Source: Phalacrocorax aristotelis
Lineage: Eukaryota; Chordata; Aves; Suliformes; Phalacrocoracidae
Direction of reading: 5' to 3'
Length of the DNA: 64,000 nucleotides
NCBI RefSeq assembly: GCF_949628215.1
Contig: NC_134279.1
Location: 83,261,517 to 83,325,516, forward strand
Shown: piece by piece, positions 26,273-33,283 of the stretch
How the letters are laid out: each line of letters begins with the position of its first letter
How positions within the stretch are numbered: the stretch's first letter is position 1
The notes under the pieces: model-generated
The model's input: only the letters and a program-made list of their open reading frames with translations
Told to the model about the DNA's origin: nothing
Database searches by the model: none
Made by a program: the position numbers and the translations under genes

Positions 26273-26550
26273 ATCATAGAATCATAGAATAACGTAAAGG
26301 CTTCAGTTGGAAGGGACCTTAAAGATCATCCAGTTCCAACCCCCTGCCATGGGCAGGGACACCTTCCACCAGATCAGGTTGCTCAAAGCCCTGTCCAACA
26401 TGGCCTTGAACACTTCCAGGGATGGGGCATCCACAACTTCCCTGGGCAATCTGTTCCGGTGTCTCACCAGCCTCACAGTAAAGAGTATCTAATATAAATC
26501 TAACCTCTTTCAGTTTAAAGCCATTATACCTCATCCTATCACCGCACTCC
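26273..26550 (-). mobile_element. CR1 LINE 3' fragment, cut off at the ERV
   Basis: Begins at its 3' end with tandem octamers (ATCATAGAATCATAGAAT at 26273-26290) and continues through the standard CR1 3' UTR on the minus strand, including the TTGGAAGGGACCTTAAAGATCATC and GTTGCTCAAAGCCCTGTCCAACATGG-type blocks. It stops at the ERV junction. Sequence beyond the ERV (33284 on) does not continue the CR1, so this copy's own 5' truncation lay within a few bases of the integration site. Confidence 0.9.
26546..26550. other. Target-site duplication, left copy (ACTCC)
   Basis: The five bases directly left of the LTR terminus are ACTCC, repeated exactly at 33279-33283. A sixth base does not match. A 5-bp duplication fits retroviral integrase chemistry. 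Confidence 0.85.
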
Positions 26551-27185
26551 TGTTGCATTAATAGTAGGAGTGTGAGGAGTGGCTGGGAGAGACCCTCCCG
26601 TTGAGTCACGAGGTTCAGACAGGACCCCCCTTGTCTTCTAAACTCCTCCTCCGAGAGGAGTCTAAGTGCGGCTAAGTCCAGTCTTAGTCACAGACTTGGT
26701 CAATGGTTTATTTTCTAAGGATTGTAGATGTAACCACCCATCAGAGTATTTATTGTTAGTAACTACTTTGGCAGATGGCCAGGCTGGTCACTTTCAATGA
26801 GAACGATCACGGCTAGATTAATGAATAGTACGATTTATTAAAGCAACAGATACAGAGGCTCTTTGGATTACTGGTGATAAATTTGCTGGCCACAAGGCAC
26901 ACAGAAATACCAAGGATATAAGTAACAGTGCTTGGCTACAAGTGCGTTAAAAAAAAAATAATAATAATGAAGCGACTCTAATGCATTTAAGGAGATTTAA
27001 GGTGACTCTATACAGGGGTTTCTAGCTTTCCCGGGGAAACTCTTGGTGTAACCAGGCATTCCAATCTTACCCAAAGGCATCCCAGTGGGGGGAAGAGAGG
27101 TTCAGCTCATCGACTGCTCCCAGAACTCAGAGTGGTACCCGATGGTGTCTTCCCTAAGTTTCTCTGAAAGTATTTTGGGGGCAGT

Positions 27186-27258
27186 GCTGGAGTAGCTCAG
27201 CTGGGAGAGCGTTAGACTGAAGATCTAAAGGTCCCTGGTTCAATCCCGGGCTTCAGCA
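27186..27258 (+). tRNA. tRNA-Phe(GAA)-type gene, head of an LTR-embedded SINE (3' LTR)
   Basis: A 73-nt sequence folds as a full cloverleaf. The acceptor stem is 27186-27192 with 27251-27257 (seven pairs, one G-T), the D stem GCTC/GAGC 27195-27198 with 27207-27210, the anticodon stem TTAGA/TCTAA 27212-27216 with 27224-27228, the T stem CCTGG/CCGGG 27234-27238 with 27246-27250, and the discriminator A 27258. The anticodon is GAA at 27219-27221. The A box (TAGCTCAGCTGGG) and B box (GGTTCAATCC) are intact. The acceptor stem differs from the usual tRNA-Phe GCCGAAA, but both sides have changed together so pairing survives. There is no encoded CCA. It runs straight into a CR1-like tail with no T-run nearby, which points to a SINE head, not a free-standing tRNA gene. 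It lies antisense to the provirus. Confidence 0.8.
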
Positions 27259-27317
27259 GTGGTTTAAAGGTTGGACTTGATGACCATTGAGGTCCCTTCC
27301 AACCTGTGATTCTGTGG
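27186..27317 (+). repeat. tRNA-Phe/CR1 composite SINE inside the 3' LTR
   Basis: The tRNA-Phe-like head is followed by a short link and then a CR1 3' end: GGTTGGACTTGATGACC..., ..GGTCCCTTCCAACC.. and a final ATTCTGTG octamer at 27310-27316. A tRNA promoter head plus a LINE-derived tail is the standard build of a SINE mobilised by that LINE. The motif GTATTTT occurs on both sides (27170-27176 and 27317-27323) and could be a 7-bp target duplication, with nine extra bases before the tRNA start. That motif is simple enough to be chance. I do not recognise this as a named avian SINE. Confidence 0.75.
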
Positions 27318-27879
27318 TATTTTTTACCTTTCAGGTGGAGCTTGAGTGACTCTAGTCGTACATACCTTTATTATGGTTGGGGTAAAGGTCCCTCGCTTTA
27401 CTTTTAAAAGCATAGACCAGAAGAAATTCAAAGCGCGTGCCCAGTGAGGGGTGGTCACGCCTTAGGGGGGGGGTGCTTTAGGGGTGGAGGTGTGTTTTGG
27501 TATTATCATGATATTACAACGAGCAAAGTTCACCAAAAGGACAGTATTTTGTCAAAAGCATGACGGACTCCTGGCCCAGGGTGGCAAACGTGCAGCGTAC
27601 CAGCTCTGTGGTACCTGGAGTCCCCATTTATCACGGAGCCTGGCCGCGATGCCTCCACAGCGCTCCACCCTCCGGACAACTCCTCTTGGAGTCAGTACGC
27701 CAAGTTCCCCTGGTTTTGCCGACATCTAAGGTTACGAGCCTAGGGAACTTCCGTGGAATGGATTGCTCCCACGTCAGCTGCACTCCAACCTGAAAGCTTC
27801 TTCCATGCTGTACCTTTTCTAAAAAACATAAGTTTAATTTCTAAGTCTCCTCCAGTGATAATTCCACATAATCCATCCT

Positions 27880-27893
27880 GTGACTATAGTCAC
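27880..27893. repeat. 14-bp perfect palindrome beside the 3' LTR
   Basis: GTGACTATAGTCAC reads the same on both strands and lies 11 bp outside the 3' LTR inside the provirus, where a polypurine tract is expected. The intervening minus-strand bases (AGGATGGA) are only partly purine, so the true priming tract is unclear. Confidence 0.7.
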
Positions 27894-27900
27894 CCAAGCT

Positions 27901-28347
27901 TCACAGTTGGATGAGATTGGAGCCACCACATGGGATCTTGGTGTGGTGATTATTGATTAATAGGGGAGTAAGGCATTTTCCAATGCTCCACAGTCTAACA
28001 TACAATATGATAGTTAAAACAAGATATACCAAGGTAAGGATCAATAATAACATGTCAACCGGATGAAGTAACTTGCTAAAGAGTCCTGTCGCAGTTGTTG
28101 ACCACCTAAAAAGAGAGTCCCACCAGTGGTGTTCTCCATCCTTCTTTGCTCTTTCTAAGAGATTTTTGTGTCCATTTTCTTGAATTCTTTCCAGTAGTTG
28201 ATTCAGGTCATCATGTTGCAACGGTTTCTTCACCAAGGTCAGGTTCATTCCAATGGTGGTAGGCAATAAATCTTGATACAATATATAGTTAGACTGTAAC
28301 AGTTGATAAGACATAACAGGAACTGAATAATTGAAGTCACCTCCCAT
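27901..28347 (-). pseudogene. Env C-terminal piece with membrane anchor, out of frame with the ectodomain
   Basis: 148-codon frame with an in-frame ATG at 28345-28347. It overlaps the end of the ectodomain frame by about 100 bp in another phase. Residues 73-90 are Trp-rich, as in membrane-proximal regions. Residues about 98-117 form a strongly hydrophobic transmembrane helix followed by a basic and Cys-containing tail of roughly 30 residues ending at 27901, some 30 bp before the 3' LTR. This is the C-terminus of env separated by a frameshift from the rest. The internal ATG could in principle start a small membrane protein, but nothing shows that it does. Confidence 0.7.
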
Positions 28348-29234
28348 AATTTCAGTAAAATTACAAACGCAAAGTGATTACCTGCCTCTACAGAGGTATT
28401 GTCTATAACTAGAAAGTCACAAAGGGTTCTCACACAAACACGCCCTTTCCCGATACATACACGTACAGTTTCAGGGCTTTCATCGGGTTGTATTTCAAAA
28501 TGACAAACGTTTTGTTCATTGTCGAGACAAATGTCTTGGGCTTTGATGGTGTTGCTCTCACAAATAAATCCTTGTTGCTCCCAGACAGCACATGCAGCAA
28601 CATCAAGAGTGTGCCATTTGTTCCCATTTTGTTGGGCCCACGCTCTATGTTCCAATGGATAGAGTGTGGCTCCACTGTGATTTAATTCCAGCACAATGAT
28701 TGGGTATATGGTGTATATCAAAGCATTGCGTATTGTCAACACAAAAGCTGTGGCTTTGCCTTCAGTAGGGTTGTAGGTGAAATTAACTGGATACCACCAG
28801 GACTGGAATTCTTTCTCAAATTTAGTTGCGTTATCCCAAATTATCTTTCGAATTTCAGTGGGCAGGGTGCCTCCCTCACCTTGTACAACTGCAGCGACTA
28901 TAGATTTTATCCACAGTTGAGCCTGAATACAACTAAGAGCTAGAGAACCATTATTCTGGGTGGCACCAAGTGCATCTGTAATCAACTGGTGGTTTTTCTC
29001 ATTTACCTTTCCCCACTGAGGTAACACATCCGATAAAAGCCATTGGTTGTTTCCCAGAACTGAAAGAGAAGATTGTAAAGTGTCTTTCAATGCATTTAAG
29101 TCACTGGTTACTGGTGCTAATTTATTAGCAAGTCTTTCAGCATCTATGTTGTTTAAAACTCCCAGTCCTGTTCCTAAGGCACCAGTCACATCTCTCTTTG
29201 ATTGTTTTTGAGAGGTGAGGGTCCGTCCGTGCAA
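28245..29234 (-). pseudogene. Env transmembrane-subunit ectodomain, broken at both ends
   Basis: Open frame of 329 codons that begins just after a TGA and has TTG, not ATG, as its first listed codon, so it is a fragment of env and not a complete gene. At residues 10-14 lies a K-Q-S-K-R site of the furin type. It is followed by a Gly/Ala-rich hydrophobic stretch (about 16-28) like a fusion peptide, then a long helical heptad region (about 30-75) typical of class I fusion proteins. Trp- and Cys-rich ectodomain follows, including Cys near residues 121, 215 and 224. Around residue 290, near 28350-28370, env-like character ends and the frame runs into unrelated-looking residues, which marks a frameshift. 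The anchor lies in the next frame. Not translatable as a normal env product. Confidence 0.75.
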
Positions 29235-29237
29235 TCA

Positions 29238-29971
29238 TGCTGGCCATCCTGTATGCGATGTATCCAGGAATGGTGAACAGGCAGGTTTAATTGCAGAGAT
29301 ATTGACCTGCACTGCCAATTCCACTCATTTGGGGGACCAGGACAGACTGAAGAGCACTCACTGTTGCCCTATGCTTTTAGTTATGTAGGGACCAATGTTA
29401 CTGATGTGAGGAGACAATTCAACAGGAGTTTGGGCGTGCTGATATAAGTGTTCAGTGTCAATTTTGAATTGAAAACCCAAGCTAAAGTGAGAGTTGGGGT
29501 CTGTCTTAACAGTGGAATTCTTTAATCGCCAATCATCCACTCTCATCTGAGAATGGTGATGTTGTTGTGTAGTACTATTGTAAACACATTTAAATCAGGT
29601 GGAGGTACATTAAAAAGCACGTATGCTTCAAACCATGGCCACCCTGTCACACATGGATTCCACATATTATGCTCAGTAATCATAAAGTCAAATAATAATT
29701 CTACGCCATGTTTGCTCCAGAGACATATTTCAGAGGGTTTGCCGTGGGTAGAGTCATTGATTGTTCAACACTTTATCTGTATTCCTTCTCCTGGTGTGGC
29801 CTGCAGGGTCAAAATTTGGTGAATACCATGTTTGTTGTGGGACATTTTGATTCCATGGGTTTGCAATATCTCCCATCTCCATTCATCTTTCAGGTATGCC
29901 TCATTCTTCTGCATGACCAGAATAGCGAGACTGAGGCCTGCCTGATTTCTTAGTGGTGCAACACTTTCACT
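29238..29971 (-). pseudogene. Env surface-subunit (SU) remnant
   Basis: The minus strand holds stretches typical of a retroviral surface glycoprotein: Trp- and Asn-rich runs such as a N-P-W-N-Q motif near 29850 and several Cys codons. They are spread over shifting frames with multiple stops. The longest single piece is 62 codons at 29358-29546. A TGA at 29235-29237 sits directly in front of the next env frame. The SU part is therefore not translatable as one protein. Identification rests on position between pol and the transmembrane subunit plus composition. Confidence 0.5.
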
Positions 29972-30319
29972 CTAATTTAGAAGTGCAAGGTTCCAAAGAT
30001 CGTGTGTCTGGACCGGAACGAATGTACTAATTTCGATTAGAAGGAGAAACATCATGTGTGCTGCAAGACAAAAGGGTGAAACTGGTCCCGGTGGAGTCTT
30101 TCCCAGACAGGTTACGCCATAAGAAAGGGTGATTCCTGTAAATGTAAAACGAAAGGAAGCGTGCCTAGTTGAGTATCCAACCCACAGGGTTATTATCTTG
30201 TTTTCCAGTGTATAATCCTGTAAGATATTCTCTCGGCTCAATATGAACCTTTGGGGCGATGGCATTAGCAGATACACAAAAGGGTCTCTTTTTGGGGCAG
30301 CTCCCTGTATCGGTGTCAC
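29972..30319 (-). pseudogene. Junction frame between pol remnant and env, possible env leader
   Basis: Frame of 115 codons opened by GTG, continuous with the end of the RT remnant. The middle is not recognisable. The last 30 residues are hydrophobic (a run containing M-M-F-L-L-L-I) and could be the remains of an env signal peptide or leader. The stop at 29972 separates it from the surface-subunit remnant. A deletion of most of pol explains why RT-like and env-like sequence meet here. The leader reading is inference. Confidence 0.35.
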
Positions 30320-30605
30320 GATCTCGGCGATGTTTGGAGCTGCGGCAGTTGAAGGTGCGGTATTACCATTTAACTGTCAGTAATGCACTGTGAAATGCCA
30401 TTGCCCAGTTGACTTCTTTACTGGCCACACTGGTGAATTATAAGGTGAATGAGTCCTTTTGATGATTCCTCTTTCCTCTAATTCTGTTACCACCCCGTCA
30501 GTCCCTGTAATTGCTGCTGCGGGTAACGGGCATTGCCGGACATTGATGGTATGAGAGGTGGGTAAGCGTACAGATGCTTCTAAGAGATTTAATCTAAGTC
30601 TGACC
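30300..30605 (-). pseudogene. Reverse transcriptase N-terminal remnant (pol), truncated
   Basis: Minus-strand translation here resembles the opening of retroviral reverse transcriptase. A Q-C-P-L-P block is followed by an E-L-E-E-R-G-I-I segment, an S-P-Y-N-S-P-V-W-P-V-K-K block and then a G-Q-W-H-F stretch. These match the conserved fingers region before the catalytic palm. A TGA at 30377-30379 interrupts the frame. After a short V-T-P-I-type stretch near 30315 the RT similarity ends, so the YxDD palm motif, RNase H and integrase are all absent. The deletion joins this point to env-side sequence in less than 350 bp. Confidence 0.65.
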
Positions 30606-31166
30606 CTATTTCATTTCCTGCAAAACTCCACACTGCCCGTCTGGGGGTTTCCACACCCGTCCACGCAGTATGTCAAATGCCAGAATGTCAGTGAGCGCTG
30701 CACTAACTAATATCTCTGCCCTGGTTAGTCTTTGTTCCCCTGGTAACCAGAGACTGATTTTTGTGGTGGGGCACTCCTTTATCACACCCTCAATTCCTGT
30801 GTATTTAACCCTGCGCTGGCCGGGTTGTATGCGATCTTGGGTGTTTGCTGCAAGTAGTTTCAGACTATCAGGAAGACCGCAAATAAGAGGGGTTAATCGT
30901 GCCGGGTCGATGGGAGCTGGCGTCAGGGATTTCCTGAACTTGTCTCTTTCGTACCTTGCCTGTATGCAGGCTGCTTTCTGTACTGACGCAGCCAGATCAG
31001 AGAAGCCAGTAGTTTTAATCTCCAGCAGTTCTCCTCTCTCCTGGGGTTCCATACCACCTGCCCAGTATGCAACCTGTGCAGTTAAGGAATAGCTGTGATC
31101 TCCTGGCGTGGAGCTTAAGAATACTCCTGGTCCCCAATAGCCTCCTGCTTCATCTTCATCTAACAC
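30606..31166 (-). pseudogene. gag/protease-like remnant leading into pol
   Basis: Frame of 186 codons opening at a GTG, with no ATG near its start. It is in a different frame from the coiled-coil ORF and separated from it by about 170 bp holding frame breaks. The N-terminal half (residues about 25-100) is polar with an Ala/Gln-rich helix and could be the end of a capsid-like domain. The last third has the hydrophobic beta-strand character of a retroviral protease C-terminus (around residues 150-172, ending near an F-D-I-L-R-G-R motif), followed directly by reverse-transcriptase-like sequence downstream. I could not find a convincing D-S/T-G active-site triad, so the protease core is probably lost. 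It is likely non-functional. The assignment rests on position and weak motif resemblance. Confidence 0.45.
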
Positions 31167-31335
31167 AATTTAGTGTCCCCCTGTCAGAGGAACTCGCCAA
31201 ATATACTCAACTTCAGATTCACCTGCTCGTCTTGAATATTTCTCCTGGATGTTTGCCAGTTCTGCAAACTGGGAACTGTGGGCACAGTAGTGCGGATCTC
31301 CTCCTCCTCCTCCTCAACAGCTGTCTCAGTTTTAA

Positions 31336-31968
31336 TCAAGGATCATGAAGGAACTGGTTCTGGTTCGGGATCAGGGTTTCTGCAATCTCATCATTGCTAT
31401 CAAGCCAAATATCCCCATCCCAGGTCCCAGGGTCTGTACAGGGCATTAATCTGCAAATCTGCTTAACTGGGGTGGAAGGCTGCACTTTATCTATCAGCCA
31501 ATTCAACTGTTGTTTAAGATAGTTATTTTCACTCACAACTTGATTCTTTTCATTTGCGAGTTGATAATTTTCACTCGCAAGCTGATTATTTTCACTCATA
31601 AGTTCATCAACTAAGGTTCCTAGTTTTTTGCCTGTCTGCCTCTCAAAGGCCAATGATGATTTTAATACTTCATTTTCTGATTTTAAAGCTGTATATTCCA
31701 CATTTGAAATTTGTTGGGGAGCAGGGGATTCCTTACTGTCGTGCTGAGCGCAGGACAAACAGGCTGCTAGCACCACACAGATTACACATTTACTGTTTGC
31801 TCCCAGCCATTGCGCAGCCTGACGCTGCTCAATGTGTTCTACCACTTTCTCTTCATCCTTCCAAAATTTTTGAGCCCACTCCTTCCCAGCCTGGGAAGGG
31901 ACACATCTGTGTTTTTGCAGCAATTTATCCGTGGTAACCCTGCCAATTACACCAATTTTCTGTTGCAT
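31336..31968 (-). CDS. Coiled-coil ORF of the ERV, ENS-1/ERNI-like (tentative)
   Basis: Open frame of about 210 codons from the first ATG (31968-31966) to a stop at 31336. It stays open upstream into the LTR with GTG at 32019 but no earlier ATG. The ATG lies in the last eight bases of the LTR, so the frame crosses the LTR end and the primer-binding-site region. Numbering from the GTG codon, a Cys-rich hydrophobic stretch lies at residues 77-90 and a long coiled coil at about 108-178. The latter includes four heptads of the form SENxxLA at about 142-169. The C-terminus is acidic. It occupies the gag position but shows no zinc knuckle and no late-domain motif that I can see. Chicken ERNI/ENS-1 is a retroviral-derived coiled-coil protein, so that family is the best guess; this is inference from layout. 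Confidence 0.65.
   Translation of the reverse strand: MQQKIGVIGRVTTDKLLQKHRCVPSQAGKEWAQKFWKDEEKVVEHIEQRQAAQWLGANSKCVICVVLAACLSCAQHDSKESPAPQQISNVEYTALKSENEVLKSSLAFERQTGKKLGTLVDELMSENNQLASENYQLANEKNQVVSENNYLKQQLNWLIDKVQPSTPVKQICRLMPCTDPGTWDGDIWLDSNDEIAETLIPNQNQFLHDP
31523..31606 (-). repeat. Four 21-bp tandem repeats encoding coiled-coil heptads
   Basis: Four consecutive diverged 21-bp units lie at 31523-31543, 31544-31564, 31565-31585 and 31586-31606, each sharing a TTTTCA core. Each unit encodes one heptad of the coiled coil (pattern S-E-N-x-x-L-x). The array is in frame, so unit gain or loss would change the coiled-coil length without a frameshift. Confidence 0.8.
31937..31954 (-). other. 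Possible primer-binding site, degenerate
   Basis: Six bases inside the 5' LTR edge, the minus strand reads TGGTGTAATTGGCAGGG. It begins with the TGG expected opposite a tRNA CCA end. With one indel it resembles the complement of a tRNA-Gly 3' end. The match is imperfect and I cannot test other tRNAs. The site lies inside the coiled-coil ORF. Confidence 0.35.
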
Positions 31969-32595
31969 TAATAGTAGGAGTGTGAGGAGTGGCTGGGAGA
32001 GACCCTCCCGTTGAGTCACGAGGTTCAGACAGGACCCCCCTTGTCTTCTAAACTCCTCCTCCGAGAGGAGTCTAAGTGCGGCTAAGTCCAGTCTTAGTCA
32101 CAGACTTGGTCAATGGTTTATTTTCTAAGGATTGTAGATGTAACCACCCATCAGAGTATTTATTGTTAGTAACTACTTTGGCAGATGGCCAGGCTGGTCA
32201 CTTTCAATGAGAACGATCACGGCTAGATTAATGAATAGTACGATTTATTAAAGCAACAGATACAGAGGCTCTTTGGATTACTGGTGATAAATTTGCTGGC
32301 CACAAGGCACACAGAAATACCAAGGATATAAGTAACAGTGCTTGGCTACAAGTGCGTTAAAAAAAAAATAATAATAATGAAGCGACTCTAATGCATTTAA
32401 GGAGATTTAAGGTGACTCTATACAGGGGTTTCTAGCTTTCCCGGGGAAACTCTTGGTGTAACCAGGCATTCCAATCTTACCCAAAGGCATCCCAGTGGGG
32501 GGAAGAGAGGTTCAGCTCATCGACTGCTCCCAGAACTCAGAGTGGTACCCGATGGTGTCTTCCCTAAGTTTCTCTGAAAGTATTTTGGGGGCAGT

Positions 32596-32668
32596 GCTGG
32601 AGTAGCTCAGCTGGGAGAGCGTTAGACTGAAGATCTAAAGGTCCCTGGTTCAATCCCGGGCTTCAGCA
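32596..32668 (+). tRNA. tRNA-Phe(GAA)-type gene, head of an LTR-embedded SINE (5' LTR)
   Basis: Identical to the copy at 27186-27258, displaced by exactly the inter-LTR distance. The cloverleaf, anticodon GAA (32629-32631) and both Pol III promoter boxes are preserved without a single difference. Presence in both LTRs means the composite was part of the parental LTR before this provirus integrated. Sequence alone cannot say whether it is transcribed. Confidence 0.8.
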
Positions 32669-32727
32669 GTGGTTTAAAGGTTGGACTTGATGACCATTGA
32701 GGTCCCTTCCAACCTGTGATTCTGTGG
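32596..32727 (+). repeat. tRNA-Phe/CR1 composite SINE inside the 5' LTR
   Basis: Second copy of the composite element at the same LTR offset, with no difference seen from the first. The CR1 tail ends in the octamer at 32720-32726. It lies in the part of the LTR expected to be U3, where an insertion can alter the provirus promoter without affecting the transcribed repeat. Confidence 0.75.
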
Positions 32728-33278
32728 TATTTTTTACCTTTCAGGTGGAGCTTGAGTGACTCTAGTCGTACATACCTTTATTATGGTTGGGGTAAAGGTC
32801 CCTCGCTTTACTTTTAAAAGCATAGACCAGAAGAAATTCAAAGCGCATGCCCAGTGAGGGGTGGTCACGCCTTAGGGGGGGGGTGCTTTAGGGGTGGAGG
32901 TGTGTTTTGGTATTATCATGATATTACAACGAGCAAAGTTCACCAAAAGGACAGTATTTTGTCAAAAGCATGACGGACTCCTGGCCCAGGGTGGCAAACG
33001 TGCAGCGTACCAGCTCTGTGGTACCTGGAGTTCCCATTTATCACGGAGCCTGGCCGCGATGCCTCCACAGTGCTCCACCCTCTGGACAACTCCTCTTGGA
33101 GTCAGTACGCCAAGTTCCCCTGGTTTTGCCGACATCTAAGGTTACGAGCCTAGGGAACTTCCGTGGAATGGATTGCTCCCACGTCAGCTGCACTCCAACC
33201 TGACAGCTTCTTCCATGCTGTACCTTTTCTAAAAAACATAAGTTTAATTTCTAAGTCTCCTGCAGCGATTATTCCACA

Positions 33279-33283
33279 ACTCC
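33279..33283. other. Target-site duplication, right copy (ACTCC)
   Basis: Five bases just outside the 5' LTR, matching 26546-26550. The pair shows that the provirus is bounded by one integration event, not assembled by recombination between different loci. Confidence 0.85.

Follow-up and report, generated by a model that had tools for sequence, protein, structure and literature searches.

A tRNA-Phe/CR1 SINE in both LTRs of a single endogenous provirus of Phalacrocorax aristotelis, possibly shared through LTR-to-LTR gene conversion

The window, a stretch of 64,000 nucleotides of the Phalacrocorax aristotelis genome (contig NC_134279.1, positions 83,261,517 to 83,325,516 of the forward strand), contains a provirus with a SINE, composed of a tRNA-Phe head and a CR1-derived tail, in each of its two LTRs. 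The features of the locus, in window coordinates, are the following:

26546-26550: target-site duplication ACTCC, left
26551-27868, - strand: 3' LTR (left copy), with TG...CA ends
26834-26839, - strand: predicted poly(A) signal AATAAA, conserved at its 6 positions in 27-29 of 29 aligned stretches
27009-27012, - strand: TATA-like element predicted for the LTR promoter, conserved at its 4 positions in 27-28 of 28 relatives
27186-27319, + strand: tRNA-Phe/CR1 SINE of the left (3') LTR (ARAGORN, Rfam; ends match other genomic copies)
27186-27258, + strand: tRNA-Phe(GAA) head, with A box at 27193-27204 and B box at 27237-27247
27259-27319, + strand: tail derived from CR1; a 3' hairpin is predicted in it, and ATTCTGTG lies at 27309-27316
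27320-27325, + strand: T6 run, the LTR's own sequence, predicted to act as Pol III terminator
27869-31960, - strand: proviral interior in open-frame pieces, one of them Env-like
31961-33278, - strand: 5' LTR (right copy), with TG...CA ends
32596-32729, + strand: tRNA-Phe/CR1 SINE of the right (5') LTR, identical to the left one (ARAGORN, Rfam, alignment)
32730-32735, + strand: T6 run of the right LTR, same as the left
33279-33283: target-site duplication ACTCC, right

The two LTRs differ at 8 positions over 1318 bp, and the 5-bp target-site duplication (ACTCC) fits an ERV3/ERVL-like LTR element, duplications of this length being assigned to ERV3 in PMC6523648. The Env-like open frame lies on the - strand, so the provirus reads on that strand and the SINE, on the + strand, is antisense to it, in agreement with the preliminary description of this DNA. 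The named organisms among the 56 database matches of the Env-like piece are birds, the best being the stork Mycteria americana, at 78% identity across 78% of its length. Other interior pieces we take to be gag-like and RT-like; Pfam searches of six interior pieces yielded no retroviral family and a single sub-threshold match, to DUF6681, and the 77-residue piece that is presumably RT-like had no Pfam match. No stretch could be recognised as the primer-binding site. Across all its 531 bp, the env piece is 89% identical to its nearest relatives in the host genome, and over shorter parts the identity does not exceed 92% (best 40 of 59 candidates); among these the provirus is, by sequence comparison, a loner without a close relative. 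Env-like fragments of 89-90% identity form a tandem array at C36:52210110-52284721, recurring every ~7.4 kb (11 among the matches listed); this 79-Mb contig is perhaps the Z chromosome. Within the window, a CR1-tail-like fragment is found on the - strand just outside the provirus (26306-26341).

In both LTRs, ARAGORN called a tRNA-Phe (GAA) on the + strand, at 27185-27259 and 32595-32669. The cloverleaf scored 65.6 bits with the Rfam tRNA model, against a cut-off of 29 (E 5e-12), and both Pol III boxes are intact, the A box as TAGCTCAGCTGG from 27193 and the B box as GGTTCAATCCC from 27237, so that the perfect GAA cloverleaf with its two boxes, and the tRNA claim that hung on its score, hold. 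The two 132-bp composites of head and tail are 100% identical between the LTRs. The end common to the aligned SINE copies is 27319 (GTGGTA), two bases past the 27317 given earlier, which makes the SINE 134 bases long; it is identical, at the same offset in both LTRs as first described, at 27186-27319 and 32596-32729. A composite occupies LTR positions 552-683 and the predicted TATA starts at position 857, 173 bp from the first base of the SINE. The positions of the predicted TATA and AATAAA, both on the - strand, place the SINE in the predicted U3.

The host assembly searched for further copies comprises 1.28 Gb, and the window lies on its contig C4. With the 132-bp query, the best 40 of 315 candidates consisted of the two composites in the provirus, four further composites, three head-only matches and 31 tail-only copies, the last 91-96% identical to the SINE tail and taken by us to be CR1, in part from their ATTCTRTG end. 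The four further head-tail junctions are on contigs C3 (two), C1 and C6. Three of these composites start from tRNA base 1, the fourth has a 5' truncation at base 40, and all finish GTGATTCTGTGGTA, which brings the insertion sites to five in total, one of them 5'-truncated. All four are outside the LTR family of the provirus, when 1.5 kb on each side is compared, and share with its LTR just the SINE and a few adjacent bases. With four other copies of the junction in the genome, a one-off insertion is not supported; the junction and both ends recur at other genomic sites, which bears out the earlier view of a true SINE with a CR1 3' tail on a tRNA-Phe head. A lone tRNA gene or pseudogene adjoining CR1 is ruled out by the same junction and ends at five sites. 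The 3' hairpin predicted for the tail has a z of -1.2, with 21/200 shuffles folding equally well, and the fold of the whole ~140-nt RNA is not better than that of shuffles (z -0.57, 54/200). By its structure, namely a tRNA head with Pol III boxes, a CR1-like 3' end with a predicted hairpin and dispersed copies, the element conforms to what defines a CR1-mobilised tRNA SINE.

A query of head plus junction, with 23/23 candidates scored, retrieved the same six composites, two tRNA-Phe genes on contig C2 (at 166.27 and 166.28 Mb) and otherwise tRNA-like sequences: one decayed tRNA-Phe-like copy on C1 that ARAGORN passes over, two tRNA-Phe calls of lower similarity on C144 and a cluster of twelve matches on C23. 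The C23 cluster spans 9.6 kb (C23:6179693-6189246), and the one locus checked there consists of five tRNA-Cys genes. When a 39-base core of the head was searched with up to 3 mismatches, seven matches were obtained (the two in the LTRs, three in other composites and the two C2 genes); apart from the composites and these two genes, the assembly yielded no further tRNA-Phe core at this tolerance. Between these C2 genes and the SINE head there are differences at 4/73 positions, and a TTTT run closely follows the genes, which suggests that the head probably derives from them or from a close relative. They start GCTGAAG and lie 12 kb apart in inverted orientation (C2:166270999-166283228), with ~250 bp alike at 98%.

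Across the five insertions, 1/73 columns vary in the head, compared with 7/61 columns and one inserted base in the tail, a contrast that five insertions are too few to read firmly and from which we claim no selection. The LTR-borne SINE has two private tail changes, at 27259 and 27278 in the left copy and common to both LTRs, so it either had time to change before it was doubled or arrived in that form. Taken together, the tRNA-Phe/CR1 SINE is real, very rare and, we infer, young.

Relatives of the LTR lack the SINE. The left flank (26551-27180) gave 799 candidates, of which the best 40 were scored, with relatives 82-86% identical; for the right flank the figures are 616 candidates, again with the best 40 scored, and 86-88%. 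With 799 candidates on first inspection, this is a large LTR family. Presence of the SINE was read in the left-flank relatives, of which there are 38 (40 scored minus the 2 of the provirus), and it was found at this LTR offset in none of them (absent from 28/28, then from 10/10 more). Nine of these 38 relatives are on contig C35 (31 Mb), which may be the W chromosome. Partial matches to the SINE tail occur in 6/38 relative loci, away from the SINE site, and the head-plus-junction search revealed no other SINE-bearing LTR in the assembly (23/23 candidates scored). On the 38 relatives and the head-plus-junction search, we reject a widespread family of SINE-bearing LTRs. The earlier description had also named the lack of any LTR relative with the SINE as evidence against its reading, and that is so far what these 38 relatives show. 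At the site, related LTRs read about TATTTTATACTA joined directly to TTTTTTACC, and the provirus LTR reads TATTTTGGGGGCAGT, the SINE and then TTTTTTACC; the six target bases look replaced by GGGGGCAGT, and no clean target-site duplication was seen on comparison with the empty-site relatives. Six or more T are present at the position of the T6 run in at least 20/38 relatives by a strict motif, a lower bound because 10/38 did not fit the motif.

The distribution of differences between the two LTRs is one-sided. All 8 fall at 27437-27860, that is, in the 432 bp to the right of the SINE, and the 886 bp that hold the SINE contain none. The probability of such clustering is 2e-4 to 3e-4 if differences are uniform, rising to at most 7e-4 when CpG sites receive a 15-fold weight. 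With all differences outside the 886 bp, homogenisation of the SINE-bearing part from LTR to LTR is probable. In the 38 relatives, 14.5% of aligned bases are substituted on the right side versus 13.7% on the left, the right being slightly more substituted in 26/38, so the right part is no strong mutation hot spot; together with the weighted probability, these values led us to reject a mutation-prone right LTR half as the sole cause of the clustering.

We therefore favor, at a probability of about 0.5, a reading in which the SINE was inserted antisense into the predicted U3 of one LTR by CR1 target-primed reverse transcription, after which gene conversion between the LTRs would have carried the SINE-bearing stretch into the other one. 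What tilts us towards conversion is the lack of any other SINE-bearing LTR in the assembly along with the one-sided clustering. The antisense orientation of the SINE argues against retroviral reverse transcriptase having copied packaged SINE RNA. That CR1 was the driver, that a conversion step took place and that it came after integration are all inferred. In plants, 25% of LTR pairs were predicted to have converted regions (PMC7251063). Several points tell against a firm verdict: conversion could have followed integration of a provirus that already bore the SINE, the provirus has no close relative, the SINE site shows no clean target-site duplication, and 3/8 of the LTR differences are within 9 bp of one another and perhaps arose as one event, which would soften the clustering; the right side is also the slightly more substituted one in 26/38 relatives. 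With 0 differences between LTRs where 0.8 would be expected at the mean LTR divergence, the SINE itself offers too little sequence to place the events in time.

Somewhat short of even odds, in our judgement, which is also what the weighting of the preferred reading reflects, is that the SINE was already present in the U3 of a parental provirus and was doubled by one round of reverse transcription, with later conversion or chance producing the one-sided differences. The identical SINE at the same offset in both LTRs, the clean 5-bp duplication around the provirus and the private tail changes common to both LTRs all agree with such a course, and, the provirus being a loner (env no more than 92% over any part), it is unsurprising that a parent with the SINE is missing. 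Against it, the assembly yielded neither a parent or sibling provirus nor a solo LTR that bears the SINE, and the clustering of differences still calls for an added conversion. The broader proposal of the preliminary description, that the SINE entered an ancestral LTR and was spread with it by reverse transcription, is not supported, as only one provirus was found with the SINE (23/23 candidates scored) and the 38/38 related LTRs read are without it; a single cycle could explain both LTRs, but 8/8 differences outside the SINE-bearing 886 bp point to conversion. At a bird substitution rate of ~2e-9 per site and year, the 0.6% divergence between the LTRs corresponds very roughly to an age of 1.5 million years for the provirus, or 4-5 million years by the right part alone.

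The earlier description also had a Pol III promoter in each LTR opposing the LTR's own Pol II promoter. Within one LTR, the two predicted units are 173 bp apart and would fire away from each other, Pol II leftwards and Pol III rightwards, which sets them back-to-back within the 5' LTR. Opposition survives only for the 3' LTR, where a genomic transcript reading through U3, with the SINE antisense to it, would presumably meet Pol III head-on. The intact boxes would yield an RNA of ~140 nt that ends at the LTR's T6 run and is antisense to the viral RNA's U3 portion. Whether the SINE arrived by conversion or otherwise, it is conceivable, though we consider it improbable, that the unit in the LTR functions as a Pol III gene, producing tRNA-Phe or SINE RNA and affecting the LTR promoter. 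The complete GAA cloverleaf, the intact boxes with the T6 run behind them and a head varying at 1/73 columns, compared with the more variable tail, are what such a gene would display; youth alone, however, would keep the head intact, five insertions are few, and the 140-nt fold is no better than that of shuffles. It is likewise doubtful that the LTR operates as a two-polymerase mobile unit, whose every integration would bring a Pol II promoter together with a back-to-back, intact Pol III tRNA-Phe/SINE gene terminated by the LTR's T-run.

An assembly artefact that transferred the part with the SINE from one LTR to the other would account for the identical left 886 bp but is very improbable, given that the right part differs as expected of real LTRs and the target-site duplication matches.

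Among known systems, the closest are TguSINE1 (tRNA-Ile) and PittSINE (tRNA-Asp), passerine tRNA SINEs with CR1 tails, for which acquisition of a new head by template switching has been proposed (PMC5729268). Their hosts are passerines, and the present host belongs to the Suliformes. They share with the present element a tRNA head on a CR1 tail, an RT-binding hairpin (predicted here) and the ATTCTRTG end, but have tRNA-Ile or tRNA-Asp heads where ours is tRNA-Phe, which sets it outside their lineage, and reach ~2000-2500 copies per genome compared with five insertions here. A tRNA-Ile query for TguSINE1 gave no matches in the assembly, but the tRNA-Ile genes were also missed by it. The tuaCR1-SINE1a/b elements of tuatara are CR1-mobilised as well, with ~6,900 RNA-like elements overlapping a CR1-mobilised SINE there (PMC7116210, in part). 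In endogenous polytropic MuLV, a foreign 190-bp insertion likewise resides in the U3 of an ERV LTR; there it is a feature of polytropic ERV LTRs as a group, and here of one provirus (PMC4306825, in part). The head-tail junction pattern had 0 matches in viral contigs. We found no tRNA-Phe/CR1 SINE of birds in the literature searched, which extended to sources other than the likeliest survey of bird tRNA SINEs, and no description there of a tRNA SINE in both LTRs of one provirus.

CR1-mobilised SINEs are present in only some birds, according to the part of PMC8665684 consulted, and, on the literature searched, the tRNA-Phe/CR1 SINE adds to the CR1-mobilised tRNA SINEs of birds with what is apparently a new head. 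With its likely parent tRNA genes, five insertions and an almost unchanged head, it offers a view of a SINE near birth. Furthermore, LTRs can copy to each other, so an insert common to two LTRs need not be virus-carried, and the case counsels caution with the common inference that inserts in LTR pairs were spread by the virus.
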